Shown: piece by piece, positions 4,045-35,335 of the stretch
Layout of the letters: each line of letters starts with the position of its first letter
How positions within the stretch are numbered: position 1 is the stretch's first letter
NCBI GenBank assembly: GCA_902595175.1
Contig: CACJPB010000010.1
Location: forward strand, 1 to 38,002
Direction of reading: 5' to 3'
DNA: 38,002 nt
From: an uncultured Prochlorococcus sp.
GTDB lineage: Bacteria > Cyanobacteriota > Cyanobacteriia > PCC-6307 > Cyanobiaceae
Notes under the pieces: model-generated
The model's database searches: none
What the model saw: only the letters and a program-made list of their open reading frames with translations
Told to the model about the DNA's origin: nothing
Position numbers and translations under genes: made by a program

Positions 4045-5058
4045 ATGGGATCTTATTACTGGAATACAACAACAGAAGATTTTTTGCCAGAAAGCCTAGA
4101 TGCAATAAAAGAACATTGTATGAGTAACTACTTACCTTTTGATGGAGGGTTATGGCAGAATTTTCAACCTAGAAATTACACATTAAAACCCAACAAAAGA
4201 GCAAAATTTTATGTTGTCGAATATCACCCTGACATAAAGATATGGCAACCACCAAAACTTCATACTGAAGAATCATATTTTAAGGATAGGGAAGAATCTG
4301 ATTGGTATGGCTTTTTTAAATGGGGAACTGAAAGAGGTATGAAATTTTATTATGGGATTGATGGTAGTGGAATTGATTACAACAAAATTTCTTTAGAAGC
4401 TTCTGTATTTAAAGTTGGTTTGACTCATGTAAAAGTAAAAATGCGAGGAGGTAAAAGATATAAAAATATTCTTGTAGAAAAAGATATTACTGATTTAAAA
4501 ATTCCTCCTGAGGATTATGAAACCTTCGTATATGCAAAATTATTCTATAAATATTGGAAAGATAAAAATTTTTTTAAAGGTTTAAAAACTATTAATCAAG
4601 ATCATATGCATGAACAACTGCAATTTGATGGCAAAACAGAATCTTTTAGATTTGAGAATGTAGAAGATAAATTAAAAATTGTCAGAGAAGCTATGGATCA
4701 GATAGAAAATTCACCACCAGAAGAAATTAAAAAAGAAGTAGATTATTTTTGTTTTCTTACTGGATTTTGGAATATGGTCGTTCGTTATAAGAAATCGTTT
4801 CCATGTTTTTACAGCTTCGACAATTACGACACAATTCGTCATTCATGGGAAAACTACAACACACCTCTCTATATAGACCCAATGAGCAGCTTTATAAATA
4901 TGTATGAATGGGCTTTTAGTTTAAAGTGTCCTTTTTTAATAGATATTGGATTTAAAGATAAGTGGTTAATGAAAACTCCTGAGGAGATAAGACCACTATT
5001 TGATAAGCCTTTAGAAGATTTTATTCTTCCTAATTCAACCCACTACGATTTAACTTAG
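4045..5058 (+). CDS. Hypothetical protein, 337 aa
   Basis: No family recognised. The protein is rich in aromatic residues (Trp, Tyr, Phe) and has no signal peptide or membrane helix, so it is probably cytoplasmic. A conserved-looking stretch is DYFCFLTGFWNMVVRYKKSF. It is the last gene of the run of abutting genes that starts at the helicase, and converges with the recombinase operon. Its ATG lies directly on the stop codon of the preceding mini-ORF. Confidence 0.7.
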   Translation: MGSYYWNTTTEDFLPESLDAIKEHCMSNYLPFDGGLWQNFQPRNYTLKPNKRAKFYVVEYHPDIKIWQPPKLHTEESYFKDREESDWYGFFKWGTERGMKFYYGIDGSGIDYNKISLEASVFKVGLTHVKVKMRGGKRYKNILVEKDITDLKIPPEDYETFVYAKLFYKYWKDKNFFKGLKTINQDHMHEQLQFDGKTESFRFENVEDKLKIVREAMDQIENSPPEEIKKEVDYFCFLTGFWNMVVRYKKSFPCFYSFDNYDTIRHSWENYNTPLYIDPMSSFINMYEWAFSLKCPFLIDIGFKDKWLMKTPEEIRPLFDKPLEDFILPNSTHYDLT

Positions 5059-5160: not shown

Positions 5161-5412
5161 TCATTGTGATTTAGCGAGTTCAATATATTTTTCAAGGTCA
5201 TAATCGTTAATCGGAATCCAGTTATTAGAAGTCAGATTATTTTGAATATGTTTGGCTAAAGTCACACCTTTAATAGCACCCATAAAAAGATATTTTTGGT
5301 CATTTATCCGTCTTAAATAAGGTTCAAGTATTCCTTTATCTCTAAGTTGATATATAGAAGCTCTGGATTTAAAACCTAGACATTTATACGCTTCTGTAAA
5401 AGTACAAAGCAT
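5161..5412 (-). CDS. Small HTH protein, excisionase/MerR-like
   Basis: An 83-aa protein with the segment TFTEAYKCLGFKSRASIYQL near the N-terminus, a likely winged/MerR-like helix-turn-helix, followed by GILEPYLRR. It starts 2 bp after the recombinase stop, so the two are co-transcribed. The size, domain and position suggest a recombination directionality factor or regulator of the element (inference). Confidence 0.7.
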   Translation of the reverse strand: MLCTFTEAYKCLGFKSRASIYQLRDKGILEPYLRRINDQKYLFMGAIKGVTLAKHIQNNLTSNNWIPINDYDLEKYIELAKSQ

Positions 5413-5414
5413 TA

Positions 5415-6611
5415 TTAATTAACCTCTACTGTTTCTCTATCAAAATCTTCTACCATTTCCTTAGTTTGGAATCTGGCATAAGAAGTTAGGTGAACATCTA
5501 ATGTATGACCCATAGCTTCTGCAATCTTTTTAGGTGATCTATAAGTACCATCATCTTTTTGTCTGTTATGACCGATATAAGCATATCTATGTCTAAAACT
5601 GTAAGGAGTTAGCTGTTGTCTTTCATCTTCTGCTTCTTTTTTTAGTTGTTGCCATACTTTGTTATCTCTAAGGAATCGACCTACAGCCTGACCTGCACCA
5701 CCCTTATCATTAATAGTTGGTAATTCTTCTTTTATATGGATTTTTTTCATTAAATTCCAATTATTTTTACTCCCATCTATATCTTCTACAAATAAAGGAA
5801 ATAACTGTCTTGGTTGTGTTGTTAAACCTTTTTTACCGCCCTGAGATTTACGATAATCTGACCATAATTCATTACCATTATTTCTTGTATGAAGGTGTTT
5901 TAAATCGTTTGGTCTAAGTCCATAAGTAGCCATAAGTTGTAGAGCAAACTTCCATTTGGGATTGTTTACAGAATCAACCAATCTAAGAATCTGACTATCT
6001 GATAATGGATAACCTATACGTTTAGTGGTTGTAACTGCTTCATCATCTGACATTACAGGCGGTAGCCATTTAGAAGGGAAATCTTGTCTCTGGACTACAT
6101 AATTTAAAAAGCTATTTAGAGCTATTCTCATGTGCCTTCTTTGAGTAGTTCCCTTAGTCCATTTAGATAAAGCAAGATTAGATAATTCTTCTCCATTCTT
6201 TGGTTTCTTTTTTTTGTTCAATAATGTCAAGGCAATATGTAAAACAGGTAAATGCTTAGACTTCCAAGTTTTATCAGAAACATTAGTTTTAAATGCTCTA
6301 TAGCTGTTTAAGGCATCAGGCCAATCAAGTTCCAGAATCGAACTAGCACCAGATGAAATTGCATAGGCTATTTTTAAATCTATCTTTCCTTTTGACTCTT
6401 CATATATATCTTGAATAACAACAATTCTATTTAAGGCATCTATCCAGGCATCTTCTGACCATTTATAAGCAGTAGATAAAGTTTCTTCATTTGGTCTTTT
6501 ACCAACTTGTAACCTTACGTTTCCTCTGGAGTTATAGACAGTCCAGTTTTTACCGCATTTGCTCTTTAGTGCTGTTCTAAAGTTGCTAATCCATTGTTCT
6601 ACCAAAGACAC
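5415..6611 (-). CDS. Tyrosine recombinase (integrase)
   Basis: A 398-aa protein. The C-terminal catalytic domain (about 200-385) shows box I Arg233 in ATYGLRPNDL, a beta-hairpin Lys near 260, box II YSFRH (337-341), His369 in AEAMGHTLD and the nucleophile Tyr378 in TSYARF. The first box II histidine is replaced by tyrosine (Y-x-x-R), which is seen in some active families. The N-terminal part would bind arm or core sites. The start is GTG; no ATG precedes it in frame. The gene is read away from the tRNA-Pro fragment at 6762, the usual layout of a tRNA-targeted integrative element. Confidence 0.92.
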   Translation of the reverse strand: MSLVEQWISNFRTALKSKCGKNWTVYNSRGNVRLQVGKRPNEETLSTAYKWSEDAWIDALNRIVVIQDIYEESKGKIDLKIAYAISSGASSILELDWPDALNSYRAFKTNVSDKTWKSKHLPVLHIALTLLNKKKKPKNGEELSNLALSKWTKGTTQRRHMRIALNSFLNYVVQRQDFPSKWLPPVMSDDEAVTTTKRIGYPLSDSQILRLVDSVNNPKWKFALQLMATYGLRPNDLKHLHTRNNGNELWSDYRKSQGGKKGLTTQPRQLFPLFVEDIDGSKNNWNLMKKIHIKEELPTINDKGGAGQAVGRFLRDNKVWQQLKKEAEDERQQLTPYSFRHRYAYIGHNRQKDDGTYRSPKKIAEAMGHTLDVHLTSYARFQTKEMVEDFDRETVEVN

Positions 6612-6637
6612 TAGTGCTCTCTATGGAATAAATTTTT

Positions 6638-6651
6638 ACACATAAATGTGT
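6638..6651. promoter_or_regulatory. Palindrome upstream of the recombinase
   Basis: ACACATAAATGTGT is a perfect inverted repeat (5-bp arms, 4-bp spacer) 27-40 bp upstream of the recombinase start codon. Its place fits an operator for the HTH partner or an arm-type recombinase site. This is an inference from symmetry and position. Confidence 0.35.
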
Positions 6652-6716
6652 GTGATTCAATTACGAACTATTCACTTATGTACATCTACAGAGTCTCATA
6701 TTCAATCTATAGCACC

Positions 6717-6851
6717 AGTTATAGCTTAAATGCCTTTGTCTCACTAACTACACACTATTGCTTTGGGAGCACTAGGTCGCAGGTTCGAATCCTGTCGCCC
6801 CGACTCTTAAAAGCCAAGTCATACTAGCGAGTTTCCCAGACTCTCTTTTTT
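6717..6851 (+). repeat. tRNA-Pro(UGG) 3'-end repeat, copy 1 (candidate attachment site)
   Basis: A 135-bp unit repeated at exactly 1450 bp distance (8167-8301). It holds AGTTATAGCTTAAA, 31 unrelated bases, then 51 identical bases (6762-6812). These read as the anticodon loop TTTGGGA (anticodon TGG), variable loop, T-arm GCAGG-TTCGAAT-CCTGT, acceptor strand CGCCCCG and discriminator A of a tRNA-Pro. The matching 5' acceptor strand (CGGGGCG) is absent, so it is a fragment and not a working tRNA. A terminator hairpin follows. Confidence 0.85.
6826..6850 (+). terminator. Terminator of tRNA fragment copy 1
   Basis: AGCGAGT-TTCCCAG-ACTCTCT followed by a run of T. One mismatch in the stem. It is the same hairpin as at 8276 and probably came with the tRNA gene's native terminator. 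Confidence 0.65.
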
Positions 6852-7046
6852 ATTGAGAAATTTGTCCACGTCTAAAATGGACAGATAGTGGATAACGTCA
6901 ATTCTGCTTAATGGTAATTTTCTTGCTTTTTCCTTATTTTTTCGTAAGTATGCGTATATAGGCTCTAATTTGCTCTAAATACGTTTATTACTGGCTTATT
7001 TAGGCTTATTTTCCTCTAAAAGACTGTCACATAGGGGTTGACGATT

Positions 7047-7322
7047 ATGAAAATTCCAATCGAAATGATGAAAGAAATTAGAGAAAGTGGGTACGATAAA
7101 AAACTTGTATATACCTATATAAGAGAGCTATTAGACAGCGATAAAGAAATTAAAGAAAATAACAATCTAGAGCTTTTAGACAATTACTTATTAGATAAAG
7201 ATCCCCAAGAAGTATCTAAAAATGCTCCTGAGATACTTATGGCAGCAGAGCTTTTAGACGCTTACTTATTAGATAAAAGATTTATGAGAGAGCTTGAAGA
7301 TGAAGAATATGATGCTGCTTAA
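7047..7322 (+). CDS. Hypothetical small acidic protein
   Basis: A 91-aa protein starting MKIPIEMMKEIRESGYDK. The ATG at 7047 is preferred over a TTG at 7038 because AGGGG lies 9 bases upstream of it. It contains an internal duplication: LELLDNYLLDKD and AELLDAYLLDKR. Mostly helical by composition. No family recognised. First gene of the 1450-bp cassette. Confidence 0.65.
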   Translation: MKIPIEMMKEIRESGYDKKLVYTYIRELLDSDKEIKENNNLELLDNYLLDKDPQEVSKNAPEILMAAELLDAYLLDKRFMRELEDEEYDAA

Positions 7323-7393
7323 TTAGATAAAGTACCTATTTTTTCCTATTTGTTTAAAGGTTATTCTTTTGAGCAAATAACAGGATTAAAACA

Positions 7394-7516
7394 ATGATGA
7401 AACTTGCAATCATTTTTTTACCAATTTTATTTGCAGTTATTTGGGCTGCTTTTATAGGGTTAAGAATAAATAAAGTAGAAACTAGAGATGGAAAAAGAAA
7501 ATTAATTAATTACTAA
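7394..7516 (+). CDS. Single-helix membrane mini-protein, 40 aa
   Basis: Starts MMKLAIIFLPILFAVIWAAF, one membrane helix, then a short basic tail ending RKLINY. The size and shape recall small photosystem or membrane subunits such as PsbY, but the sequence is not close enough to name. Second gene of the cassette. Confidence 0.5.
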   Translation: MMKLAIIFLPILFAVIWAAFIGLRINKVETRDGKRKLINY

Positions 7517-7518
7517 TT

Positions 7519-7540
7519 GATTGACAGGCGATCTAAAATA
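7519..7540 (+). promoter_or_regulatory. Upstream motif shared with position 2173
   Basis: Same 22-bp motif as at 2173 (19 of 22 bases identical), with TTGACA at 7521. Placed 23 bp before the DUF3764 start. Possible promoter -35 region or regulator site. Confidence 0.4.
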
Positions 7541-7563
7541 AGGGGTAATTAGCTCCTTTTTTT

Positions 7564-7848
7564 ATGTCAATTGAAACAACTGTTTTAGATTTCAAATTAA
7601 GCAATACTTTTGAGGAATACGAGGCTCATATGAATGCTCCAGAACAACAGGCCATGTTTAAAGAGATGGGAGTAAAAACCTTTTATATTGGCAAATCATT
7701 AGAAGACCCTAAGAGAGCAACAGTTATGTTTCAAGGGCCAGTAAATACTTGTTACGACATCTTTGTTAATCCAGAAACTAAGCCAATAGTTGAAGCATCC
7801 GGTCATATTTATGAAGGAACAGTAATAAACCGCTGGATTTCTGGTTAA
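7564..7848 (+). CDS. DUF3764 family protein
   Basis: A 94-aa soluble protein without signal or membrane segment. It is about 75-80% identical by eye to the product at 24947-25312 (SIETT.LDFKLSNTFE, MGVKTFYIGKSL and PETKPIVEASGHIYEG are shared). The fold is probably a ferredoxin-like alpha/beta barrel domain, as in DUF3764 (inference). The function is unknown. The copy here is in the mobile cassette while its paralogue sits beside SelO, so the cassette may have picked up a core gene or the reverse. Confidence 0.8.
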   Translation: MSIETTVLDFKLSNTFEEYEAHMNAPEQQAMFKEMGVKTFYIGKSLEDPKRATVMFQGPVNTCYDIFVNPETKPIVEASGHIYEGTVINRWISG

Positions 7849-7849
7849 T

Positions 7850-7909
7850 TTGAAACGCTTGCTACTCCCACTACTAGCAGCTATCGCATTACCTACTGCT
7901 GTTAATGCC
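7850..7909 (+). repeat. Signal-peptide DNA cassette, copy 3
   Basis: Encodes MKRLLLPLLAAIALPTAVNA. It matches the copy at 3122 in most of the 60 positions, including long exact runs. It lies 4.7 kb from that copy and inside a different element unit. Confidence 0.7.
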
Positions 7910-8095
7910 TTTACTTTGGATAAAAATAATGAAGATATTATTATTAAAACTGATTTGGACGAAGAATATATAGTAAAAGATTCAACAGTTAATATTACAC
8001 CTTGGTCAAAATTAGAGGCAACTATAGCTGTTCAAAATAATCATCCAATAGATATATGCCTTAAAAAAAGAGCTAGTAGGGCTACTAATCCTTAA
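7850..8095 (+). CDS. Small secreted protein with the repeated signal-peptide cassette
   Basis: An 81-aa protein with signal MKRLLLPLLAAIALPTAVNA, started by TTG one base after the DUF3764 stop. The mature part (FTLDKNNEDIIIKTDLDEEY...) has one Cys and no known domain. The start codon replaced the ATG found in other copies. Translation is probably coupled to DUF3764. Confidence 0.65.
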   Translation: MKRLLLPLLAAIALPTAVNAFTLDKNNEDIIIKTDLDEEYIVKDSTVNITPWSKLEATIAVQNNHPIDICLKKRASRATNP

Positions 8096-8166
8096 AAAGA
8101 GGTCAAATTAAGGTCTATTATTGCTTTATTTAACAAGACAAAGCACGCAGAACCTAGTAAGAAAAT

Positions 8167-8301
8167 AGTTATAGCTTAAAAACCTAGTGATGCTAATGTG
8201 CTGTGCGGTGTTTTGGGAGCACTAGGTCGCAGGTTCGAATCCTGTCGCCCCGACTCTTAAAAACCATCAAATACTAGAGAGTTTGCCAGACTCTCTTTTT
8301 A
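8167..8301 (+). repeat. tRNA-Pro(UGG) 3'-end repeat, copy 2 (candidate attachment site)
   Basis: Same order of parts as copy 1 at exactly +1450 bp: AGTTATAGCTTAAA, a divergent 31-base spacer, a 51-base tRNA-Pro 3' fragment identical to copy 1, then the terminator. The spacer differs from copy 1, so only the outer blocks are conserved. Confidence 0.85.
8276..8300 (+). terminator. Terminator of tRNA fragment copy 2
   Basis: Perfect hairpin AGAGAGT-TTGCCAG-ACTCTCT followed by T's. It would end transcription of the cassette. Confidence 0.75.
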
Positions 8302-8364
8302 TTGTTTACATTCTCACATTAGAAAGGAGCTCTAGGGGAGGCTCTATAATCTTCGCAGATGCCT

Positions 8365-8598
8365 CTAGAAGTAACTTTTTAAGATACTTGTTTTCTTCCA
8401 TCCTTCGTCTAATAACTGCTTATTTTCTTTGCTGGCTGCTTCGATAGTTTCCACTCTGCTTCCCTTCATAACTGGTTTAATACTCCTCTTATAAACACAA
8501 CTATAGGAAATTATCATTGCATCAATACTAGTAGAAGGTTTAGATACATCCTCAAATAGTTCAAACACTTTTATCCTTGATCTATCGATATTTATCAA
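8365..8598 (-). CDS. DUF1651-like small protein
   Basis: A 77-aa protein, clearly paralogous to the gene at 17908 (shared NxxRSRIKVF, KPVMKGSRVE and LL(D/E)EGWKKT). The pattern of an N-terminal RSxIKxF strand and a C-terminal L..GW fits the small cyanobacterial DUF1651 family. The only start is TTG at 8598. The paralogue has eight more N-terminal residues, and here codons back to the GT41 stop read through without ATG, so the 5' end may be eroded. It lies 18 bp downstream of the GT41 gene in the same direction. Confidence 0.6.
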   Translation of the reverse strand: MINIDRSRIKVFELFEDVSKPSTSIDAMIISYSCVYKRSIKPVMKGSRVETIEAASKENKQLLDEGWKKTSILKSYF

Positions 8599-8616
8599 TG
8601 TAAGTTTGTTTATTAA

Positions 8617-10425
8617 TTATCTCTTTAAATCTTTTAAAACATTCTCAAGATTTATAGTAAAAGTTTCTGTATTAAATAATTCTCCATTACTCTTCAATTT
8701 AAACAACTTATTTTTGAGAACATTAATTTCATTTCGATTTTTCGAATAAAAAATTACTTTTTCCTTATATTCATCAATTGTTTTTGCGATTAATACCTCT
8801 AAACCAATCGATCTTAAAATGCTTGCACTTACTCTTGATGCGAAATTTTTACCTTGAAGGGTGATTACTGGGAGTCCTGACCACAAAGCTTCAATTGTCG
8901 TAGTGTGTCCGTTGTAGTTAAAAGTATCAAGCAATAAATCACCAACTTTATATCTTGAAAGATGTTTTTCATAAGAAGGCTCTCTGTCAGCAAAGATAAT
9001 TTTAGTACGATCTATATCTCTCATTTCAAAAAATTCTAAAAGATTTCTCATGGCATATTTGTTTGGCTTTCTAATCCATAAAAAGCTATTTTCAATTGAA
9101 TTAAGTATTTCACACCAACATATGACTGTTTTTAAATTTAATTTTTGAGGTCTATGAAAAGCAACCATAATAAAACTATTTTTCTTGAAATTATAAAATT
9201 GATTTTTAATTACCTTTTCTGAGATTTTTGTAGTATCGTCAAAACACATAAATGTTCCAGGAATATTTATTACTTTTTCAGTAAAGTAACCAACTTCTGT
9301 TTCAGGAATCACATGCTTATCAGCTAACAAGTAATCCATTTGATTTGATCCGGTAGTCGAAGGATAAGCTAAATAACTAATTTGTATAGGTGCCACTTTT
9401 TGAGATAATATTCCCATTCTTGATCCGGCAGAGTAACCCATTAAATCAATAATGAAATCCAGGTTATCTGATCTAATTATATTTGCAGCTTCATCATCAG
9501 ATTTTAAAGATATATCTCTGTAAACATCAAAATTGTTTGATATTTTTTCTGTAATTTGATCTTTTTTTGGGTTTATAGAATAACCATAAATTTCAAATTC
9601 TTTACGATTATGCTTCTTAATAACTCCTGAGATTAGAAATGAAACTGGATGAAAAATAAAATTGTTTGAAATATAACCTATTCTTAATTTTTTATTATTT
9701 TGAGGTTTTAATTTTACATGGTCCCTTCTAAAGGTTGAATTAAAAAAATTTATTGCTCTTAATTTTCTTGTGTAGTTTTCCTCCTCTAAATAAAGTAATG
9801 TCAAAGGGTCACCACCTTGATAAGAATTAACACCAAACTTTTTTAGTTTAGGTTCTAATTTATTAATAATTCGCCATTCAAATGTTTTTAATAACAAGTT
9901 ATAAAAACCAACTATTGCATTTCCATATGATGGGTTTAGATTGATTGTTTTTATATAAAAATCCTTTGCCTTGTCATAGTCTTCGATCTCATCAAATAAT
10001 TGAGCTAAGTTATACACCACTAAATAATTCTTAGGGTTGACATTCAAAGCACTCAAAAAATATTTGATCGATAATTTATATTCTCTTTGATTCTTATATA
10101 TGAGACCTAGATTATTTAGAGAGCTAAATAAATTTTCGTTAAAATCCAAAGATTTTAAAAAATATTTTTTTGCTTCACAAATTTGATTATTTTTTAGATA
10201 TAAACTTCCTAGATCACTATATGAATTTGGATAATTTGGATTTTTTTCTATCGATTTTTTTAATAAATTTATTGCTTCTTCATTGTTGGATTTAATGATA
10301 TTTAAGAAAGCTAATTGATGTAACTGAAGAAAGTCAATTTCATTTTTATCATATAAATTTTTTAATAATTTTTCTGCCTTTTCATATTCTTTTTTTTGGA
10401 TCAGCTGGTTGATATCTTTCTTCAT
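8617..10425 (-). CDS. TPR and GT41 glycosyltransferase (O-GlcNAc transferase/SPINDLY type)
   Basis: A 602-aa protein. Residues 1 to about 210 form TPR repeats (for example YPNSYSDLGSLYLKNNQICE, LGLIYKNQREYKLSIKYFL, YNLAQLFDEIEDYDKAKDFY). From about 235 follows the GT41 catalytic region: LRIGYISNNFIFHPVSFLI, DFIIDLMGYSAGSRMGI, PIQISYLAYPSTTGS and the C-terminal block NYNGHTTTIEALWSGLPVIT with SRVSASILRSIGL. The family transfers sugars (GlcNAc or others) from nucleotide donors to protein side chains. The substrate here is unknown. Genes of this type in islands may alter surface proteins (inference). It lies between tRNA fragments 2 and 3, so it seems to be cargo of one integration unit. Confidence 0.88.
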   Translation of the reverse strand: MKKDINQLIQKKEYEKAEKLLKNLYDKNEIDFLQLHQLAFLNIIKSNNEEAINLLKKSIEKNPNYPNSYSDLGSLYLKNNQICEAKKYFLKSLDFNENLFSSLNNLGLIYKNQREYKLSIKYFLSALNVNPKNYLVVYNLAQLFDEIEDYDKAKDFYIKTINLNPSYGNAIVGFYNLLLKTFEWRIINKLEPKLKKFGVNSYQGGDPLTLLYLEEENYTRKLRAINFFNSTFRRDHVKLKPQNNKKLRIGYISNNFIFHPVSFLISGVIKKHNRKEFEIYGYSINPKKDQITEKISNNFDVYRDISLKSDDEAANIIRSDNLDFIIDLMGYSAGSRMGILSQKVAPIQISYLAYPSTTGSNQMDYLLADKHVIPETEVGYFTEKVINIPGTFMCFDDTTKISEKVIKNQFYNFKKNSFIMVAFHRPQKLNLKTVICWCEILNSIENSFLWIRKPNKYAMRNLLEFFEMRDIDRTKIIFADREPSYEKHLSRYKVGDLLLDTFNYNGHTTTIEALWSGLPVITLQGKNFASRVSASILRSIGLEVLIAKTIDEYKEKVIFYSKNRNEINVLKNKLFKLKSNGELFNTETFTINLENVLKDLKR

Positions 10426-10856
10426 TGTAAGAATAAATAATTAATATTTTTAATTAATAAACATCATTATAATTCTCGATAAAGAGAAAAAATAATCTAT
10501 GTTCTCTTTTCGGAAGTTCCTAAAAATATTTACAAAAATTTTATTTACTTGCGGATATATCTAATGAAATTAATTTACACCTCTCATAGCAAACTTTCCT
10601 GTTTGGACGGTTACTTTCCATTTCATCTTATTTATTAAGAAGTTGCTGGATTAAGTATCTTTTTTTTAAAACTTTCAATGCTAAAACATTAAAATCCGCC
10701 TCTACTAACTTTTGTAAAGGGGGCTCTAAGTTCTATAAACACCTTACATAATCTTCGAAGATATACTTATATTTAGTTTTACAAGCGATCAACACTATTC
10801 AAATAATCAATTCTATAACTAGGATTCAAAGAAAATCTCATTTGATAGGGTGAGTC
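10426..10856. other. Non-coding stretch upstream of the GT41 gene
   Basis: No convincing gene. It holds an AT-rich hairpin (AAAGAGAA...TTCTCTTT, about 10480-10510) and, near 10730-10765, a stretch (GCTCTA ... ATAATCTTCG-N-AGAT) resembling 8346-8362 beyond tRNA fragment 2. It may therefore include decayed element-end sequence. Confidence 0.4.
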
Positions 10857-10871
10857 CTTTGGGAGCACTAG
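10857..10871 (+). repeat. Truncated tRNA-Pro fragment, copy 3
   Basis: CTTTGGGAGCACTAG is identical to the anticodon loop to variable-loop part of copy 1, then the match stops. This is shorter than the other copies, but the exact 15-mer and its place between two cargo units support a truncated attachment remnant. Confidence 0.5.
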
Positions 10872-10927
10872 CTCTTGATTAATTAAAAATCACTGCTTGT
10901 AAAAAATATGCAAAGTTTGAAGATTAA

Positions 10928-10963
10928 ATGAAACGATTACTACTTGCACCGCATGTAACATAA
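10928..10963 (+). pseudogene. Orphan 11-codon signal-peptide start (MKRLLLAPHVT)
   Basis: Shares ATGAAACG, TTACTACTTGCACCGC with 4012-4044, then ends at TAA. The nine bases before it (GAAGATTAA) equal those before the signal cassette at 2817. Probably a remnant of a lost secreted-protein gene. Confidence 0.5.
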
Positions 10964-11013
10964 GGCGTGGTTATCCTTAATTAATTATCAATGAAGAAAT
11001 ACCTTTTTAATTA

Positions 11014-11331
11014 ATGTTGCGACTTCTTCCGTTACCTATTTTTATTTGTATTTATCTATTCTCTTGGTGGAGATGTAAAAAAAATATTATCGCTAGTGAT
11101 AAGCAACTAAAACCTTGCATTGATTGGGCATATATAAAAAATTTACCTCTCCCACCAAAACCTTCTTTTGTCGAGTTTTATATTGTTTATGTCTCTTCTT
11201 ATTTTAAATTTCCTTTTGGGATAATTATTCAACAACTACCTTTCGCTAAGAAAGTAAGATACTACGAAAGAGAAATGAAATTAATATTTGATAAATGGAA
11301 TCTAGAAAAAATTAAAAAAATAATTTACTAA
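11014..11331 (+). CDS. Hypothetical membrane-anchored protein, 105 aa
   Basis: The N-terminal hydrophobic helix (LPLPIFICIYLFSWWR) is followed by a basic stretch, and a second hydrophobic or amphipathic stretch lies near 55-80 (FYIVYVSSYFKFPFGIII). No family recognised. It lies in the fourth, partly decayed unit of the island. Confidence 0.55.
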   Translation: MLRLLPLPIFICIYLFSWWRCKKNIIASDKQLKPCIDWAYIKNLPLPPKPSFVEFYIVYVSSYFKFPFGIIIQQLPFAKKVRYYEREMKLIFDKWNLEKIKKIIY

Positions 11332-11332
11332 T

Positions 11333-11446
11333 TTATTGATATGTCTGGAGCAAAGATATATAAATTCCTAATAATACAAATATTGCTACACCCATTCCCA
11401 TGACTGTAGTGGGTTGATTATTCCAAAAATTGGTTAAAAATTCCAT
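11333..11446 (-). CDS. Single-helix membrane mini-protein, 37 aa
   Basis: Starts MEFLTNFWNNQPTTVMGMGV, followed by a hydrophobic helix (AIFVLLGIYISLL) and a short polar tail. Too short for standard gene finders but shaped like picocyanobacterial one-helix proteins. It converges with the gene at 11014 (1-bp gap). No name can be given. Confidence 0.45.
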   Translation of the reverse strand: MEFLTNFWNNQPTTVMGMGVAIFVLLGIYISLLQTYQ

Positions 11447-11702
11447 TGATTGGGAAGTTTAAATTTTTTTAGCTCTATTAGCTCTATTCATAACTTTTCT
11501 CAAAATATTATTTTTAATTGATAAATCAGAAATAAAATAAAGAGTTAAAAACAAAACTGCTTTTGCAAAAAATGAGATTTGCATAGTAAAAATAACTTTA
11601 TACTCATAAAAGCAAATTTCATTTAAACTGCCAATTTTTTAGAACTTTTTAGAAGGTATATTTAAATAGTTGAATACGAAAGACTGAAGGAAAACAAATG
11701 CA

Positions 11703-11777
11703 ACAAGATCTACTGTCTTAGCGTTAGTAGAAGATCCTGTTGGATATAAGATAGAGTTAATAGAAAGAGACTTATGA
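11703..11777 (+). pseudogene. gloA: C-terminal remnant of glyoxalase I (lactoylglutathione lyase)
   Basis: Reading the frame that ends at TGA 11775-11777 gives TVLALVEDPVGYKIELIERD, the characteristic VEDP-x-GYKIEL C-terminal end of GloA, including its metal-binding Glu. Upstream in frame there is a TGA a few codons earlier and no glyoxalase sequence, so only about 24 codons survive. The native enzyme removes methylglyoxal. It looks like a break point left by insertion or deletion. Confidence 0.75.
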
Positions 11778-11923
11778 AGGAATTAGAAGAAAATACTATC
11801 GTACAAATAAGAACTCTTCTTAATTATTTAGAGCAAACAGATCTATTAAAAAACGAGGATATACTTAGGTGTTTAGATGTAATAGCAAGAGAATATGGCG
11901 GAGAAGTAGTTGATAAAAATTAA
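11774..11923 (+). CDS. Hypothetical small protein, 49 aa
   Basis: Starts MKELEENTIVQIRTLLNYLE. The ATG overlaps the TGA of the gloA remnant (ATGA), so it was probably coupled to gloA before gloA was lost. It is helical, ends REYGGEVVDKN and has no known domain. It abuts the next, frameshifted ORF. Confidence 0.55.
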   Translation: MKELEENTIVQIRTLLNYLEQTDLLKNEDILRCLDVIAREYGGEVVDKN

Positions 11924-12108
11924 ATGGCAAATCCATATCAAAAAAAATATCGCTAGAACAAGCTTATGACGAATTAAAAGCAATTTGTATCAAGTTGCAA
12001 GACGAAACTGGAACTACAGATATGGATGTAAAAATTTTACATAGAGAACTTGCGAGGGTTTATGAAAATGATATTGTTGACAACTATGACATAGATTGGG
12101 AAGTTTAA
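11924..12108 (+). pseudogene. Small gene frameshifted in an A8 tract
   Basis: ATG at 11924 reads MANPYQKKYR then stops. Adding one A to the A8 run (11940-11947) would continue as ISLEQAYDELKAICIKLQ and on to TAA at 12106-12108, a 61-residue protein resembling its upstream neighbour in style (RELARVYEND). It could be a real pseudogene, a sequencing error in a homopolymer, or slippage-dependent expression. Confidence 0.55.
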
Positions 12109-12133
12109 ATAAGTTTATTTGATATTCTTTTGC

Positions 12134-12266
12134 TATAAATTAATTGAGGCCAAACCTCGTCAGCACACTCTACGTTTGCTGCAAGACATAAATTGATTCT
12201 ATATAGTTGCGAGTCGATTTAATAACCCTTTCAGTAGTTGGAATTTCTGGAAGGGTTTCTTGTTAA
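12134..12266 (+). ncRNA. Candidate small RNA with own promoter and terminator
   Basis: A TATAAA -10 box (12134-12139) precedes three hairpins: GAGG-CCAAA-CCTC (12146-12158), CAGCA...TGCTG (12161-12182) and a terminator-like stem at 12224-12257. No ORF fits. The predicted RNA would run from about 12146 to 12265, roughly 120 nt. No known Rfam family was recognised, and there is no clear -35. Confidence 0.4.
12224..12264 (+). terminator. Terminator-like hairpin of the candidate small RNA
   Basis: AACCCTTTCAG pairs with CTGGAAGGGTT (one G-U) across a 12-base loop, followed by TCTTGTT. Confidence 0.55.
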
Positions 12267-12490
12267 AAATATTTATTTAGTAATCGGTTATAAATTACCA
12301 ACAACACTATTATCCCAACTATTCCATAAACTCCAAGGTATGGGTCGTGATGATTCCATCAAAGCTTCTTTAAAATCCCTTTAATACTTCATAGCCATTG
12401 CCAAATGAAAATAACACGCATAAGATTTTTTCTTATTAATTTGCATAATTTCTTAAAACTGGTAATTTTAGTGAGCTTCAATAAATTTAA

Positions 12491-12715
12491 ATGCAAGATC
12501 AAACAATTGAAAAGTTGGCAGCTGTTGTAGTAAACATAACTAAGGTGCTGGTAATAATTTATCTAGGCTTCATAGAAGTATTTAAAATTGGCAAATTACT
12601 TAGAGAGAAATTAGATGCTGAATTTGATATTTCTCGAAAATGGGCTTCACAAAATTATTTAATTCTAAAAAAACGACTAGCGGAAAGAAAAGTAGCGGGT
12701 GTTATAGAAAATTAG
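12491..12715 (+). CDS. Hypothetical protein with one membrane helix, 74 aa
   Basis: Starts MQDQTIEKLAAVVVNITKVL. It has one hydrophobic helix (about 10-30), then a charged helix (LLREKLDAEFDISRKWASQN). No family recognised. The frame stays open after its TAG (see the next entry). Confidence 0.55.
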   Translation: MQDQTIEKLAAVVVNITKVLVIIYLGFIEVFKIGKLLREKLDAEFDISRKWASQNYLILKKRLAERKVAGVIEN

Positions 12716-12877
12716 CAAGCGTTTTATTTACGCAACAAGTTTTATCGAATATACGCCATCCTAACAATTATTTTTTTATCCCATCCTTTTGCAAAAGGTG
12801 ATTCCATCTTTAGGGGAAAAATAAAGAACATTGCTATCAATTTATTTAAATACCTTATAAAACTTTTTATGTATTAA
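12716..12877 (+). pseudogene. Start-less ORF continuing the frame of the preceding gene
   Basis: After the TAG at 12713-12715 the same frame runs 53 more codons. It includes a signal-peptide-like stretch (IYAILTIIFLSHPFAKG) and a basic helical tail. No ATG, GTG or TTG is present at a sensible place. It is probably the remnant of a secreted-protein gene, or a readthrough extension. Confidence 0.3.
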
Positions 12878-12938
12878 AAACTTGTTTTGCCACCTTCTAA
12901 ACGATAAAAGAAACATATGAGCATATACCTTAAGAACT

Positions 12939-13355
12939 TTGTTTAAAAAAAGAACGAAAGGAATATCTCGAAATAGTATTAAGGGAAGAAAAAATCCAAC
13001 AACAAAAAAAGTTCATTCCAAATCTAGAAAAATAGTAAAAAGGGAAAATAATTATTCTTTTTCTTCATCTATTTTTTCCTCATTTATTATTTTTACAGGT
13101 TTTATAAGCCTTTCACTCACAATATTTTTTCTTATCAGGCAATTACAGCCAGTAATCAGAAACGAAAGATTGAGATTCTTATGTACTTATCAACTTGGTG
13201 ATAAAAAAAGTCAAAGCTATAAAGAATCAAAATTAGAATTAGAAAAGCTTGTTAGAGATAGTGATAAGTATTGTAAGAATTTCCTTCTTCCAAAAGAAAA
13301 AAAAGGATTTAGATTATTGCCAACTTTGAGCAATATTCTTTTTAGATTTATTTAG
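12939..13355 (+). CDS. Hypothetical basic membrane-anchored protein
   Basis: A 138-aa ORF with a very basic N-terminus (KKRTKG...KGRKN...KKVHSKSRK), one membrane helix near 48-68 (IFSSFIIFTGFISLSLTIFF) and a soluble tail. The only start is TTG without a good ribosome site, so the 5' end may be eroded. No family recognised. It ends 15 bp before the decayed tRNA fragment. Confidence 0.45.
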   Translation: MFKKRTKGISRNSIKGRKNPTTKKVHSKSRKIVKRENNYSFSSSIFSSFIIFTGFISLSLTIFFLIRQLQPVIRNERLRFLCTYQLGDKKSQSYKESKLELEKLVRDSDKYCKNFLLPKEKKGFRLLPTLSNILFRFI

Positions 13356-13370
13356 TATTTTCCCAGGCGA

Positions 13371-13414
13371 TTTGGTAGCAATAGGTCGCGGGGTCCAATA
13401 CTTTTGCCTCGATT
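13371..13414 (+). repeat. Decayed tRNA-Pro fragment, copy 4
   Basis: Ungapped alignment with 6762-6805 gives 34 of 44 identical bases. TAGGTCGC is intact, the T-arm and acceptor are mutated (GGGGTCCAATAC, GCCTCGA). It marks the right border of the island-like part, just before an hli gene. Confidence 0.65.
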
Positions 13415-13520
13415 GAGATCTCATAGAATGGCAATTTTACTTGTAAGGGAATCGTACAGGAAATAACAACATAAATAAAAAAACTTTTTTAAGATAGTTA
13501 AAATAAAAAATTTTAATAAA

Positions 13521-19247: not shown

Positions 19248-19363
19248 TGACAGAAAAAGAGTTGAAGGAATTAGAGAAATTTGCAGAAGAAAATGGATAC
19301 AATGATGAGCTAAAAGATATATATTTAAGGGAAGTTATTGAAAGAAATAAAGAATACGAATGA
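19247..19363 (+). CDS. Small acidic helical protein, 38 aa
   Basis: Starts MTEKELKELEKFAEENGYND. It overlaps both neighbours (TAATG at its start, ATGA at its end), so translational coupling is likely. No family named. Confidence 0.55.
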   Translation: MTEKELKELEKFAEENGYNDELKDIYLREVIERNKEYE

Positions 19364-19590
19364 GATCTAATTTTCGACCAAACATTCGACTAGCCACAAA
19401 CATTCTTTTAGTTATTGGTACTTTTGCTATTGCTTTAAAGATTGCTCCAATAGCAGAGGTATATCAGGAAAAAAATTTATGTATTAAATATTTAAAACAT
19501 CAAATAGATCGAGACAAACTTATCAAAAGACTAAAAATAGTTAAACAAGCAAATCCATCTAGTATTTGTGACTCCATCCTTAAAAGTTAA
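19360..19590 (+). CDS. Small membrane-anchored or secreted protein, 76 aa
   Basis: Starts MRSNFRPNIRLATNILLVIG. It has one N-terminal hydrophobic helix and two cysteines in the soluble part (LCIKYL, SICDSIL), possibly one disulfide outside the membrane. No family named. The ATGA overlap with the gene before supports the start. Confidence 0.6.
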   Translation: MRSNFRPNIRLATNILLVIGTFAIALKIAPIAEVYQEKNLCIKYLKHQIDRDKLIKRLKIVKQANPSSICDSILKS

Positions 19591-19592
19591 AA

Positions 19593-20045
19593 ATGAAGAT
19601 TAAGTCATTTACCCCATTAATTGCAGTCTTTGGTACTTCATTTCTGATAACCATTTCATTGCTTAAAAGTTTCCAAATTTTTATGGGGATATCAATTTGC
19701 CTTTTAGCTATGCTCAAGCTTATGGATATTGAAGCTTTTGGAACAAGTTATAAGAAATATGATTTAATATCTTCTAAATTTGATGGCTGGATATATATTT
19801 ATCCTTTTTGCGAATTATTAATTGGAATAAGTTTTCTTAATTCTTCTCCACCCTCTTTAATTATTTTTATTGCTCTAATTTTAGGAATTTCTGGCATGAT
19901 TTCGGTATTTAAGGCAGTTTATTTGGATAAATTAAAATTAAATTGTGCATGTATTGGTGGATATGCAAAAACTCCTTTGGGAATTATTAGTTTTATCGAA
20001 AATCTTTTAATGGCAATTATGAGTGTCTTAATTTTTATTAAATAG
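19593..20045 (+). CDS. MauE/DoxX-like integral membrane protein
   Basis: A 150-aa protein with four predicted membrane helices (about 8-28, 28-45, 65-105, 128-148). LAMLKLMDIEAFGTSYKKYD and YPFCELLIGISFL, then LNCACIGGYAKTPLG, match the MauE-type branch of the DoxX superfamily found beside DUF411 genes. MauE helps thiol or redox maturation of periplasmic proteins in methylamine utilisation. Here it more likely serves the neighbouring metal proteins (inference). The CAC motif could be redox-active. Confidence 0.8.
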   Translation: MKIKSFTPLIAVFGTSFLITISLLKSFQIFMGISICLLAMLKLMDIEAFGTSYKKYDLISSKFDGWIYIYPFCELLIGISFLNSSPPSLIIFIALILGISGMISVFKAVYLDKLKLNCACIGGYAKTPLGIISFIENLLMAIMSVLIFIK

Positions 20046-20106
20046 CGATTTAATAAATTTTCATTTATGGTTAATTTAAATATTAAATTTAATCGTCGTA
20101 ATTATT

Positions 20107-20646
20107 ATGGCACTTAATAAAATATTTATTAAAAGAGGATTTTTAAATTATCTAATTTTTTCTGGAATTCTTTTTACAAATATAATTAATCCATATAAGA
20201 GTATTGCTTTAACTCAAGAAAATATAGATATCCCAAAAGTTGTTTCTTACAGATCAGCATCATGTGGTTGTTGCAAAAAATGGATCAATCATTTAAGAGC
20301 TAATGGATTAGAAGTTGTTGATAATATAGTTGAGGATGTTTCAGTAATTAAAAACCAATATCAAATTCCCAATAATCTGAGATCATGTCACTCTGCTCAA
20401 ATAGCTAACTATATGATTGAAGGACATGTCCCGATTGAATCAATCAACAAACTTTTTAGAGAAAAACCAAATATCAATGGAATAGCAGTTCCTGGCATGC
20501 CACTTGGCTCTCCAGGGATGGAAATACATTCTCTCGACTCGCACTCTCATAATTATGAGAACTACAAAGTAGTTTCATTTAGTAAAACTGGCAAAAGAAA
20601 AATATTTGACAAAATTTCTCCTAACAAAATCCCTACCGGAGAATAA
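20107..20646 (+). CDS. DUF411 metal-binding protein
   Basis: A 179-aa protein. The N-terminal helix (about 12-35) is a signal or membrane anchor. Then follow SASCGCCKKW (C53, C55, C56), LRSCHSAQIANYMIEGHVP and GIAVPGMPLGSPGMEI, the full DUF411 signature. DUF411 proteins are linked to copper or other metal resistance and are often near CopA-type genes. The extra HSLDSHSHNY stretch may add a metal site. In operon with MauE-like and DUF3721 genes. Confidence 0.88.
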   Translation: MALNKIFIKRGFLNYLIFSGILFTNIINPYKSIALTQENIDIPKVVSYRSASCGCCKKWINHLRANGLEVVDNIVEDVSVIKNQYQIPNNLRSCHSAQIANYMIEGHVPIESINKLFREKPNINGIAVPGMPLGSPGMEIHSLDSHSHNYENYKVVSFSKTGKRKIFDKISPNKIPTGE

Positions 20647-32601: not shown

Positions 32602-33594
32602 ATGACGAAAACATTTAAAGTAGCTGCTGCTCAAGTTAGACCTGTACTTTTTGACTTAAATGGTTCATTGAATAAAGTTCTTTTAAAGATCCAAGAGGCA
32701 GCTACAAAAGATGTAAAGTTGATAGTCTTTCCAGAAACTTTTCTTCCTTACTACCCATATTTTTCATTTGTAGAGCCGCCAGTTCTTATGGGTAAATCTC
32801 ATATGAAGCTATATGAGCAAGCAGTAGAAATCCCGGGTTCAGTTACAGACATAGTTGGGAAATCAGCTAAAAAAAATAATATCCAAGTTCTTTTAGGGGT
32901 TAATGAACTTGATGGTGGAAGTTTGTACAACACTCAAATTCTTTTCAACGAAGTAGGTGAAATTATTCTAAAAAGAAGAAAAATAACTCCTACGTTTCAC
33001 GAAAGAATGATTTGGGGTCAAGGCGATGGTTCTGGCCTAGAAGTTGTAGATACTCAACTTGGCAAGATAGGATCTTTGGCTTGTTGGGAACACTATAACC
33101 CTTTAGCTAGATTTGCTCTTATGGCTAAAGGGGAACAAATACATTGTGCACAATTTCCTGGTTCATTAGTTGGTCCAATATTTACCGAGCAAACTGCAGT
33201 CACAATGAGACATCACGCTTTAGAGGCTGGATGTTTTGTGATTTGCTCAACAGGATGGTTAGATCCAGAAGATTATGAAAAGATAACGTCCGAAACCAAC
33301 CTTCACAAAGCATTTCAGGGAGGATGTCACACAGCAATTATCAGTCCAGAAGGCAAATATTTAGCAGGACCACTTGATGAAGGAGAAGGATTAGCAATAG
33401 CAGAAATTAATTTATCACTGATTACTAAAAGGAAAAGAATGATGGATAGTGTTGGTCACTACAGTCGTCCAGATCTTCTTTCTCTAAAACTAGATACATC
33501 CCCTAACAAGGTATTTGAGATGACAAATAAGAAAAATTCCATCCCAAAAGATCTAAGTGCAAAAGACTATTTAGAGGAAATCAATCATGTCTGA
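32602..33594 (+). CDS. nit1: Nit1-type nitrilase (Nit6803 family)
   Basis: A 330-aa full-length carbon-nitrogen hydrolase. The catalytic triad is Glu45 in VFPETFLPYYPYF, Lys127 in KRRKITPTFHERM and Cys161 in LACWEHYNPL. The CWEHY block and the HERMIWGQGDG segment mark true nitrilases of the Nit6803/Nit1 group, which turn nitriles into acids and ammonia. It would be the nitrogen-releasing step of the cluster. The stop overlaps the next start by 8 bases. Confidence 0.94.
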   Translation: MTKTFKVAAAQVRPVLFDLNGSLNKVLLKIQEAATKDVKLIVFPETFLPYYPYFSFVEPPVLMGKSHMKLYEQAVEIPGSVTDIVGKSAKKNNIQVLLGVNELDGGSLYNTQILFNEVGEIILKRRKITPTFHERMIWGQGDGSGLEVVDTQLGKIGSLACWEHYNPLARFALMAKGEQIHCAQFPGSLVGPIFTEQTAVTMRHHALEAGCFVICSTGWLDPEDYEKITSETNLHKAFQGGCHTAIISPEGKYLAGPLDEGEGLAIAEINLSLITKRKRMMDSVGHYSRPDLLSLKLDTSPNKVFEMTNKKNSIPKDLSAKDYLEEINHV

Positions 33595-34675
33595 AATAGG
33601 TAAAATTATTACTGATTTGCAAGTTAATGGGATAAGTTCAACTCCCAAAAAGGGCAACAGAGGTAGGAAAGGAGGAGCTGGTCCATCGGATCATAGAGCT
33701 TTAACAATTGAAGGAAAGACTGTAATGGTACCCGTTTATAATCACGTATCTAAAAAGTCTAATTATCAACTTTCAGAGGAGTCTGACGGACAATTTATTC
33801 TCCAAAATAGCGAAGATTCAAACATCAAGGAATTATCTACAACAAAAGAACCAAATTTTTATTCTTTAAAAACAAAAGATGGTATACCTTATAAATCGAT
33901 TGCTCTTCTTCATAGCAAGGATGTATTAGCCACAACTATTCTCCAAAAATGTATTCGTTTCAGAAATAGAGAAGAATCTTGCCAGTTTTGCGCAATAGAA
34001 CAATCTTTGAAAAATGAACAAACCATCGTAAGAAAAACTCCAGATCAAATTGCTGAAGTTGCAGAAGCAGCTGTAAGACTTGATGGAATAAAGCAATTAG
34101 TAATGACAACAGGGACCCCCAACACTAGCGATAGGGGAGCAAGAATAATGTCAGAAGCCGCAAAGGCAGTTAGGGCTAAAGTTGATATTCCAATCCAAGG
34201 TCAATGCGAACCTCCTGATGATCCTATTTGGTTTCAAAAAATGAAAGACTCAGGCATAGATAGTTTAGGCATGCATTTAGAGGTTGTAGAGGAGGAGATA
34301 AGAAAAAAAATTCTTCCCGGCAAATCTGAAATTCCTCTTGAAAGATACTATAAATCCTTTGAAGAAAGTGTCGCAGTATTTGGAAGGGGAGAAGTTTCTA
34401 CATATTTATTAGCAGGATTAGGTGATAGCAAAGAATCTCTAATAAATTGCAGTAAAAAATTGATATCTATAGGAGTTTATCCTTTTATAGTTCCATTTGT
34501 GCCAATAGCAGGAACTCCTCTAGAACATCATCCCTCCCCAAGCACTGATTTCATGATTGATATTTATCAATCAGTCTCGCATTTACTAAATGAAGGCAAC
34601 ATAAAATCTGATGAAATGTCAGCTGGTTGTGCCAAGTGCGGTGCCTGCTCAGCTTTATCCCTATTTGAGAGTTAA
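33587..34675 (+). CDS. Nit1C radical SAM protein (MSMEG_0568 family)
   Basis: A 362-aa protein. The iron-sulfur motif is C122-x9-C132-x2-C135 (KCIRFRNREESCQFCAIEQ), not the usual CX3CX2C. The C-terminus has C348-x2-C351-x2-C354 (SAGCAKCGACSAL), which probably holds a second cluster. The rest has TIM-barrel-like segments (VMTTGTPNTSDRG, SLGMHLEVVEE). Substrate unknown. Lies in overlapping order with nitrilase. Confidence 0.9.
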   Translation: MSEIGKIITDLQVNGISSTPKKGNRGRKGGAGPSDHRALTIEGKTVMVPVYNHVSKKSNYQLSEESDGQFILQNSEDSNIKELSTTKEPNFYSLKTKDGIPYKSIALLHSKDVLATTILQKCIRFRNREESCQFCAIEQSLKNEQTIVRKTPDQIAEVAEAAVRLDGIKQLVMTTGTPNTSDRGARIMSEAAKAVRAKVDIPIQGQCEPPDDPIWFQKMKDSGIDSLGMHLEVVEEEIRKKILPGKSEIPLERYYKSFEESVAVFGRGEVSTYLLAGLGDSKESLINCSKKLISIGVYPFIVPFVPIAGTPLEHHPSPSTDFMIDIYQSVSHLLNEGNIKSDEMSAGCAKCGACSALSLFES

Positions 34676-34681
34676 AAAATT

Positions 34682-35335
34682 ATGTTTTTTATTGACCCCT
34701 CAAGTAAGGATATTGGCAGAAGCTTTAGCTCTGCGCCATACTATTTCACACCCTCTGTAAGATCAGGTATCGGGATTGAAGCAGAAGATTTCATGCTATC
34801 TCCAAATTCAAATTCAGAAAACTTTTCATTTCATTTGCTTGAAGAGAATTCTCCCCTTATCAAAGACTACTGGGGATTACGAAAAAAAATATTTTGCGAG
34901 GAACAAAATATTTTTACTGAATCAGATATTGATGAAATTGATCAAGTTGCGTACCCAATAGTTTCTTTGAATTATGGATATGGCGATAAAGAGAGAGTCG
35001 TTGGCGTCGTAAGAATTTATGAAACAGAAAAAAGAAAATGGTACGGTGGAAGACTAGGTGTTGATTCTAGTTTCCGTAAATTTAACCAAATAGGAAAAGG
35101 ATTGATCTGGAAAGCAGTCACTACAGCAAATGGATGGGGATGCGATCAATTTTTAGCCACCGTTCAGATACAAAATGTAAGTTTTTTTAGACGACTTAAA
35201 TGGAATTCAATTAAACAAATTGAAATCAAAGGAATTAAACATCACTTAATGGAGGCTGACTTAAATTATTACAAGCCTTCAAAATTAATCAGACTAGGCT
35301 CATATCTAGTGGGAAGTGACCACAAAAAATGTTAG
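34682..35335 (+). CDS. Nit1C GNAT acetyltransferase (MSMEG_0567/Sll0786 family)
   Basis: A 217-aa protein. GNAT fold with ERVVGVVRIYETE (beta 4), then GGRLGVDSSFRKFNQIGKGL (acetyl-CoA pyrophosphate loop, R/Q-x-x-G-x-G/A) and FLATVQIQNVSFFRRLKW (N and F typical of the C-terminal half). N-terminal extension of about 45 residues. Substrate unknown. Overlaps the next gene by 7 bases. Confidence 0.88.
   Translation: MFFIDPSSKDIGRSFSSAPYYFTPSVRSGIGIEAEDFMLSPNSNSENFSFHLLEENSPLIKDYWGLRKKIFCEEQNIFTESDIDEIDQVAYPIVSLNYGYGDKERVVGVVRIYETEKRKWYGGRLGVDSSFRKFNQIGKGLIWKAVTTANGWGCDQFLATVQIQNVSFFRRLKWNSIKQIEIKGIKHHLMEADLNYYKPSKLIRLGSYLVGSDHKKC

Follow-up and report, generated by a model that had tools for sequence, protein, structure and literature searches.

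The contig examined here, 38,002 bases of an uncultured Prochlorococcus and referred to below as the window, very probably carries a stack of small integrative elements which arrived by successive site-specific insertions into the gene of the proline transfer RNA (tRNA) with the anticodon UGG, brought about by divergent tyrosine recombinases. According to this explanation the attachment site of an element would contain the 3' half of the tRNA from the anticodon loop on, and recombination would take place at the 7-bp loop TTTGGGA between the inverted half-sites AGTGC and GCACT. The tRNA would be rebuilt with the 3' half of the newcomer, and the old 3' half would be displaced as a scar behind the left arm of the newcomer. 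Repeated insertion would leave a row of scars in the same direction, older with distance. The window would hold the far part of such a row, namely a recombinase-bearing unit from the contig start to position 6761, a 1.4-kb cargo unit, a unit with a GT41 glycosyltransferase, a rearranged unit and an older right arm. The window is the whole contig (G000:C10) of a Prochlorococcus-like assembly of 1.11 Mb in 38 contigs, which is 65.6% complete.

A sequence-only reading of this stretch had proposed four tRNA-Pro(UGG) 3' fragments of graded quality, separating different gene loads and left by serial insertion at one target. The 51 identical bases which it had described in two of the copies (6762–6812 and 8212–8262), running from the anticodon loop onward, were reproduced, and both copies matched the 3' half at 42 of 42 positions in an ungapped scan with the 42 nucleotides from the anticodon loop to the discriminator as query. 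Its decayed copy at 13371 scored 33 of 42, and all other window peaks with at least 21 matches had exactly 21, the level of the background. On the antisense strand of the 64 sequences scanned (63 regions of relatives and the window, 1.44 Mb) there was no peak of 24 to 38 matches, and the score at 13371 is therefore not due to chance. Three full scars with 39, 40 and 42 matches were met on that strand, two of them in a second, unoriented region of genome G043 and one in G006. In their order of 42, 42, core only and 33 the window scars agree with the gradient observed in the relatives (see below), the live gene being outside the assembly. To the right of 13412 the ungapped scan and an arm search yielded nothing that stood out; sites at 16.8 kb and 27.1 kb with repeated arm matches were rejected as further scars, as no convincing tRNA-like core was found in them.

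The 15-base piece at 10857 had been listed among the graded copies. It is a genuine junction, but looks truncated or core-only rather than gradually decayed, because it ends abruptly after 15 bases. That it is a chance 15-mer and not a scar is very unlikely. Although no 3' half comes after it, its left flank is an arm (cluster 43) which precedes scars in G103, G149, G030 (twice), G179, G025 and G003, among the 14 matches listed out of 22. Outside detected same-strand scars the exact 14-mer of this piece occurs only in the window, once in G115, and in three reverse-strand scars. The occurrence in G115 (L191, G115:C9, ~40769) is a second junction of this kind, which likewise argues against chance; its left flank resembles arm cluster 6 as judged by eye. 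Both this junction and the one at 10857–10871 retain the 15 bases CTTTGGGAGCACTAG with nothing following; they may be truncations, or may have arisen as core-only products when an element inserted into a scar.

As had been stated before, the source tRNA gene lies outside the window, where no tRNA gene was detected by ARAGORN. It was followed in relatives, in 63 array regions out of 62 genomes which were picked from match lists and are thus a non-random sample (L104 was excluded for its overlap with L160). An intact tRNA-Pro(UGG) is present in 59 of the 63 regions, identical over its 74 nucleotides, and its 3' half equals both perfect window copies. The arrangement used to define islands in the Islander database, an intact tRNA and a 3' fragment in the same direction with the island in between, is found in these relatives, the intact gene not being in the window. 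Of 266 genomes of the genus, 242 gave a match with the fragment and 250 with the intact gene plus upstream flank as query (expectation value, E, ≤0.001; any match, fragments included). A phage search gave 141 records; among the 20 matches listed all were to the two tRNA copies, 19 annotated as tRNA-Pro and one unannotated. The assembly itself has a tRNA-Pro(GGG) at G000:C17:19808–19881, with 46 bases between it and the end of the contig.

The 59 arrays contain 251 fragments downstream of the intact tRNA, with 0–13 per array. When the strictest criterion is used for anchoring, 36 regions qualify, and 168 of their 169 fragments lie downstream in the direction of the tRNA. Fidelity declines with distance from the gene (pooled Spearman correlation -0.447, p 9e-14, over the 251 fragments of the 59 arrays), and the correlation is negative in 32 of the 37 arrays which have at least three fragments and any variation. 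From rank 1 to rank 10 the perfect copies number 48/55, 31/46, 21/41, 15/30, 8/27, 3/20, 1/12, 1/7, 0/4 and 1/3. This gradient, together with the matched unit ends described next, upholds serial insertion with decay at one tRNA-Pro target; scars, direction, age gradient, breakpoints and matched ends are all taken from the sequences directly.

The left arms, situated before the core, and the right arms, situated after the 42 nucleotides, sort into families, with clustering thresholds of 0.52 and 0.48 chosen by eye. Scars less than 60 bp from the left end or less than 100 bp from the right end of a region were excluded from the arm tables, and units shorter than 150 bp or ending in the intact tRNA from the set of 272 units. 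In this set the two ends of the same unit are matched, with a mutual information z of 14.0 and none of 2000 shuffles reaching it, the shuffles ignoring relatedness of the genomes. The match persists when recombinase-bearing units (z=12.2, 255 units) or identical arm pairs (z=13.5, 265 units) are removed. As an example, right arm cluster 24 stands at the start of 22 of the 24 units which end in left arm cluster 10. Homology stops on one side of the scar in 558 of 562 comparisons at 277 scars, compared with 41–47% at three sets of 277 random points within units. When scars were paired with each other (300-bp flanks, ≥80%, sites of intact tRNA included), both sides agreed in 2 pairs, only the left side in 224 and only the right side in 161. 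Several right arms of clusters 1, 3, 4 and 7 contain close direct repeats (for example GGGCGATC twice) which resemble arm-binding sites of recombinases; the common right arm instead looks like a terminator hairpin.

Breakpoints in related strains bear on the window scars one by one, since flanks of all four copies recur in relatives beside scars. The left arm of scar 1 is found in G035 (95% over 150 bp), G005 (91%, 150 bp), G077 (91%, 131 bp), G054 (88%, 131 bp) and G117 (76%, 152 bp), where a scar and then other DNA follow (of the common terminator type in G035 and G117). At the start of the homologous units in G005, G035 and G054 the right arm is of cluster 3. Its right arm lies behind other left arms in G025 (94%) and G134 (92%), and the start of unit 1 is located in G028 (88%) immediately after the live tRNA, as expected of the youngest insertion. 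For scar 2 the left arm occurs in G161 (89%) and the right arm in G018, G016, G149 and G134 (86–89%, partly common terminator). The left arm of scar 4 has 89% identity over 150 bp in G115, ahead of another decayed scar, and its right arm 78% over 54 bp directly after a scar in G117; this right arm suggests that a further unit formerly lay to the right. Neither outcome that would have refuted the sequence-only reading, a source gene unlike the fragments or a lack of breakpoints in relatives, was observed.

The recombinase of 398 amino acids ahead of scar 1 had been noted as facing this copy. Its start indeed lies 151 bp before the scar; it is probably cognate for the left-most unit only, because no recombinase is present in the remaining window units, whose arms belong to different families. 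Among Prochlorococcus sequences it matches scB241_528O2 (97%), AG-469-F22 and AG-670-O13 (83%). It has no match in Pfam. Of ten relatives scanned four match Phage_integrase (PF00589) at E ≤1 (1.4e-5, 1.6e-4, 1e-3 and 0.12), six do not, and none exceeds the curated cut-off; the two best matches belong to proteins which are 49% and 28% identical to the window protein, respectively. The catalytic residues R233, K255, R340, H369 and Y378 are kept in all 22 aligned recombinases, that of the window included. Tyrosine recombinases usually have a histidine ahead of the second arginine; here Y337 precedes it and is kept in 20 of 22. No sequence match was found among solved structures, and one search of viral contigs, aimed at close relatives, gave no relative of the window recombinase. 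The adjacent open reading frame (ORF) of 83 amino acids, a candidate directionality factor with a weak match to HTH_17 (0.0075, below the cut-off), also adjoins the recombinase in L093, L091, L095 and L097 (95, 88, 79 and 78%).

Recombinase ORFs were searched for among those of at least 150 amino acids with phmmer (1e-10) and a profile (1e-3), limits which very divergent recombinases could escape. Including that of the window 23 were found, 21 of which have a scar (20) or the intact tRNA (1) downstream in the fetched DNA; of the remaining two, one is a fragment of 159 amino acids in G042 and the other lies in the unoriented region of G043. All 21 assignable recombinases are on the minus strand, 89–195 bp before the core. 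The five bases that precede it are conserved over 276 scars (-5 A 0.63, -4 G 0.86, -3 T 0.93, -2 G 0.83, -1 C 0.86), and AGTGC at this place is the reverse complement of GCACT beyond the loop, the tRNA itself reading GGTGC. Sites of tyrosine recombinases consist of two inverted half-sites around a 7-bp overlap. The layout of AGTGC, loop and GCACT fits such a site, and the exact crossover bases are inferred.

Units have a median length of 2278 bp (n=272; quartiles 1399 and 3318 bp). As a recombinase was found in only 17 of the 272, most are small cargo units. In 31 further units the place of the recombinase is taken by a large ORF on the minus strand. A scan of ten of these ORFs gave matches to families of TPR, solute-binding, NmrA, trypsin, fatty acid hydroxylase, helix-turn-helix and autotransporter proteins. 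An integrase family was not matched by any of the ten; one matches helix-turn-helix domains, those of the resolvase and the transposase type included. Of the 257 scars without a recombinase, 127 have arms similar to those found beside a recombinase in another genome, compared with 0 of 328 in the null (21 recombinase-adjacent arms in the comparison, 20 in its null). This makes it likely that recombinase-free units are mobilised in trans, by the recombinases of elements whose arms match theirs; the route of transfer is likewise inferred.

A different manner of keeping the tRNA, with a second 5' half and a shifted live gene, was encountered in G003 and G076. There the tRNA that follows the normal upstream flank is interrupted at the anticodon loop (...GGGAGCAT); 27.7–29 kb further stands an intact tRNA-Pro preceded by another upstream sequence. 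In G003 a recombinase of 462 amino acids starts 195 bp before the core of this intact tRNA-Pro. Of 266 genomes, 24 have the cut form and 17 the other upstream sequence, and eight have both; in G094 even the copy behind the other upstream sequence is cut. By eye, 12 of the 24 genomes with the cut form have, on the contig of the cut copy and about 1–5 kb downstream of it, an intact gene with the normal flank. Elements which bring a 5' half and a promoter seemingly account for the cut and displaced tRNA, and the scars in between in G003 and G076 are not fully accounted for. Regions L201–L210 were used in this comparison only, L211 and L212 were unused, and none of them entered the statistics.

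Several observations weigh against a stack built by successive insertion. The genome's own intact tRNA-Pro(UGG) is absent from the whole assembly (28 tRNA matches), the sole tRNA-Pro being that with GGG, and the left end of the stack is absent as well. The window scars 2–4 have no close recombinase-adjacent arm (best values 0.44, 0.42 and 0.35 at a cut-off of 0.48), and the AlphaFold model of the recombinase is poor (predicted local distance difference test score 44.6, from 4 sequences) and was unused for a fold search. Arms across a scar are weakly associated too (z=4.1, 277 scars, 0 of 2000 shuffles). Only three empty-site relations were found (80–97% identity), two of them spanning two units. 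In 49 sequences with at least three scars the share of homology-block ends which come within 25 bp of a scar is 13.1%, compared with 3.4% at random, and the majority is thus found elsewhere; many breaks in homology fall within units, which are therefore also reshuffled internally. The GT41 gene occurs in G115 as well (88%), but with different unit ends. Right of the array, window 19360–20646 has its best match in G005 inside the array of that genome, and the ORFs at 15422 and 27145 are out of order relative to G005. Finally, a crossover in the loop would carry the 3' half along with the right flank, so that shared mutations are to be expected among scars whose right flanks are homologous. This predicted linkage, by which site-specific and homologous recombination were to be distinguished, was not borne out: among pairs with any mutation sharing was seen in 10 of 488 right-sharing, 33 of 525 left-sharing and 197 of 3140 random pairs, the right-sharing pairs being lowest. 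Scar mutations seem mostly private, and part of the mixing may come from homologous recombination between scars.

It was considered whether homologous recombination among the tRNA repeats of 42–100 bp sets most of the present unit order, with recombinases responsible only for some founding insertions. Such recombination would also leave the two ends of a unit together and produce homology on one side of a scar only, and the failure of scar mutations to follow the right flank is contrary to the site-specific model. It is nevertheless improbable as the principal process. The recombinase stands at a fixed place before the scar or tRNA in all assignable cases, fidelity is lower further away from the live tRNA in most arrays, the left half-site is conserved though it lies outside the tRNA repeat, and about half of the recombinase-free scars carry arms like those beside a recombinase, none being found in the null. 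Homologous recombination may act in addition. A dispersed repeat of tRNA origin, spreading by itself and unlinked to the genes in between, could also produce many copies per locus (counted at this locus only), but the nearly uniform direction, the matched unit ends and the one-sided homology make this idea so improbable that it can practically be set aside. Successive site-specific insertion stays the preferred explanation of the stack.

The gene loads between the copies differ as had been claimed (Table 1). DNA of window 10906–12807 is carried by G134 (C15) at 92–93% in another order and orientation, and unit 3 is therefore rearranged inside. The left-most unit, cut by the contig start, holds an ORF at 4045–5058 with a weak match to Rep_OBD (0.011, below the cut-off) and a helicase/nuclease gene, itself probably cut by the contig start, which matches the PADLOC profiles PDC-S37 (3e-153, profile positions 838–1450) and Hhe (1.9e-88). 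Right of the stack, DNA of G005 just past its array is collinear with ten window ORFs between 17302 and 24931; taken together with the arm matches in relatives this indicates the same locus, with some shuffling. The counterpart of 19360–20646 in G005 is L091 6001–7258, with 73–92% protein identity. Further right (32602–36309) genes for a nitrilase, a radical SAM protein, a GNAT acetyltransferase and an AIR-synthase-like protein stand in a row as an apparent metabolic cluster.

Table 1. Positions of scars, units and associated features in the window, and of cut and intact tRNA sites in two relatives
Feature	Position	Strand	Remarks
Helicase/nuclease, C-terminal part (AAA_12, REase_MTES_1575), candidate anti-phage defence	305..2173	+	PF18741 1.3e-33, PF13087 3.2e-9
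Helix-turn-helix-like ORF, candidate directionality factor	5161..5412	-	83 amino acids
Divergent tyrosine recombinase	5415..6611	-	398 amino acids
Left arm (P, cluster 17) and left half-site of scar 1	6612..6761	+	arm matches in relatives
Scar 1	6762..6803	+	tRNA-Pro(UGG) 3' half, 42/42
Unit 1	6804..8211	+	about 1.4 kb, without recombinase; 94-amino-acid ORF, DUF3764 protein (PF12594 2e-33), 81-amino-acid ORF
Scar 2	8212..8253	+	42/42; left arm cluster 20
Unit 2	8254..10856	+	without recombinase; GT41/TPR glycosyltransferase 8617-10425, minus strand, PF13844 1.8e-69
Scar 3	10857..10871	+	15-base core only; left arm cluster 43
Unit 3	10872..13370	+	small ORFs, rearranged relative to G134
Scar 4	13371..13412	+	decayed, 33/42
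Right arm (P', cluster 7) after scar 4	13413..13462	+	78% over 54 bp in G117
Cut and intact tRNA sites	G076:C3:22711, 24037, 51744; G003:C3:3325, 31033		L165+L201 (G076); L202+L109 (G003)

A wider interpretation by analogy with integrons is tentative and somewhat doubtful. The anticodon loop of tRNA-Pro would be a shared capture site on whose 7-bp core several recombinase families converge, recombinase-free units with family-specific arms would be loaded in trans, the scars would be time-ordered arrivals, and a second kind of element with a 5' half and promoter would shift the live target. The stack itself turns an island of an abundant marine phototroph into a readable record in which each scar stands for one arrival, with its order and rough age, and the ends of a unit hint at its recombinase. 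The rate of gene arrival and the mobilisation of small cargo in trans become directly testable in this way, and a further question is raised by the tRNA being kept alive in two opposite ways at the same target. The sequence-only reading stands; to it the present analysis adds the arm evidence for the four scars, the proof that the junction at 10857 is real, the arm families, and the finding that few units hold a recombinase.

Islands at tRNA genes are already known as a kind, and the nearest named family are the tycheposons. These are said to have been described by Hackl et al. (Cell 2023) as tRNA-linked islands of Prochlorococcus with a deep-branching tyrosine recombinase and cargo genes; reportedly they have other hallmark mobility and replication genes and are found in vesicles or phage particles. 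Compared by description only, the likeness consists in integration at a Prochlorococcus tRNA gene with a partial tRNA repeat left behind, which is found here; in contrast, most units of the present stack have about 2 kb and no recombinase. Seven tRNA targets and a size of 4–200 kb are quoted for tycheposons in PMC10872708, and PMC11389934 also speaks of them. The former article reports repeated tRNA ends in additive islands of Ca. Methylopumilus; compared with what it describes, the scars here start from the anticodon loop and have 42 nucleotides, and arms and recombinases are assigned.

The excerpted text on Islander (PMC4383910) counts 3760 islands with 3' and 159 with 5' fragments, and 125 tandems of at least two islands, four of them of at least three. 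An intact tRNA with a displaced fragment marking the island is common to both data sets, and an anticodon-centred crossover class is named in that text. Islander, as far as this text goes, requires an integrase for each member of a tandem and a length of 2–200 kb. Here most units are without a recombinase, window unit 1 has 1.4 kb, and the lower quartile of unit length is 1399 bp; stacks reach up to 13 fragments, compared with the four tandems of at least three. The 159 islands with 5' fragments are a precedent for the polarity of the cut tRNA form. Matched-arm units without recombinase may be undescribed so far, as a limited literature search would weakly suggest. For the second way of keeping the tRNA, the tRNA-dependent lysogeny of actinobacteriophages, as outlined in the part of PMC10865867 considered, is a partial parallel to G003 and G076: a short common core is used, the tRNA is not rebuilt at the junction, and an intact tRNA is supplied. 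In the phages it is the phage's own tRNA gene which is supplied, whereas here the intact tRNA stands at the junction beside the recombinase, with a 5' half and promoter which are seemingly borne by the element.

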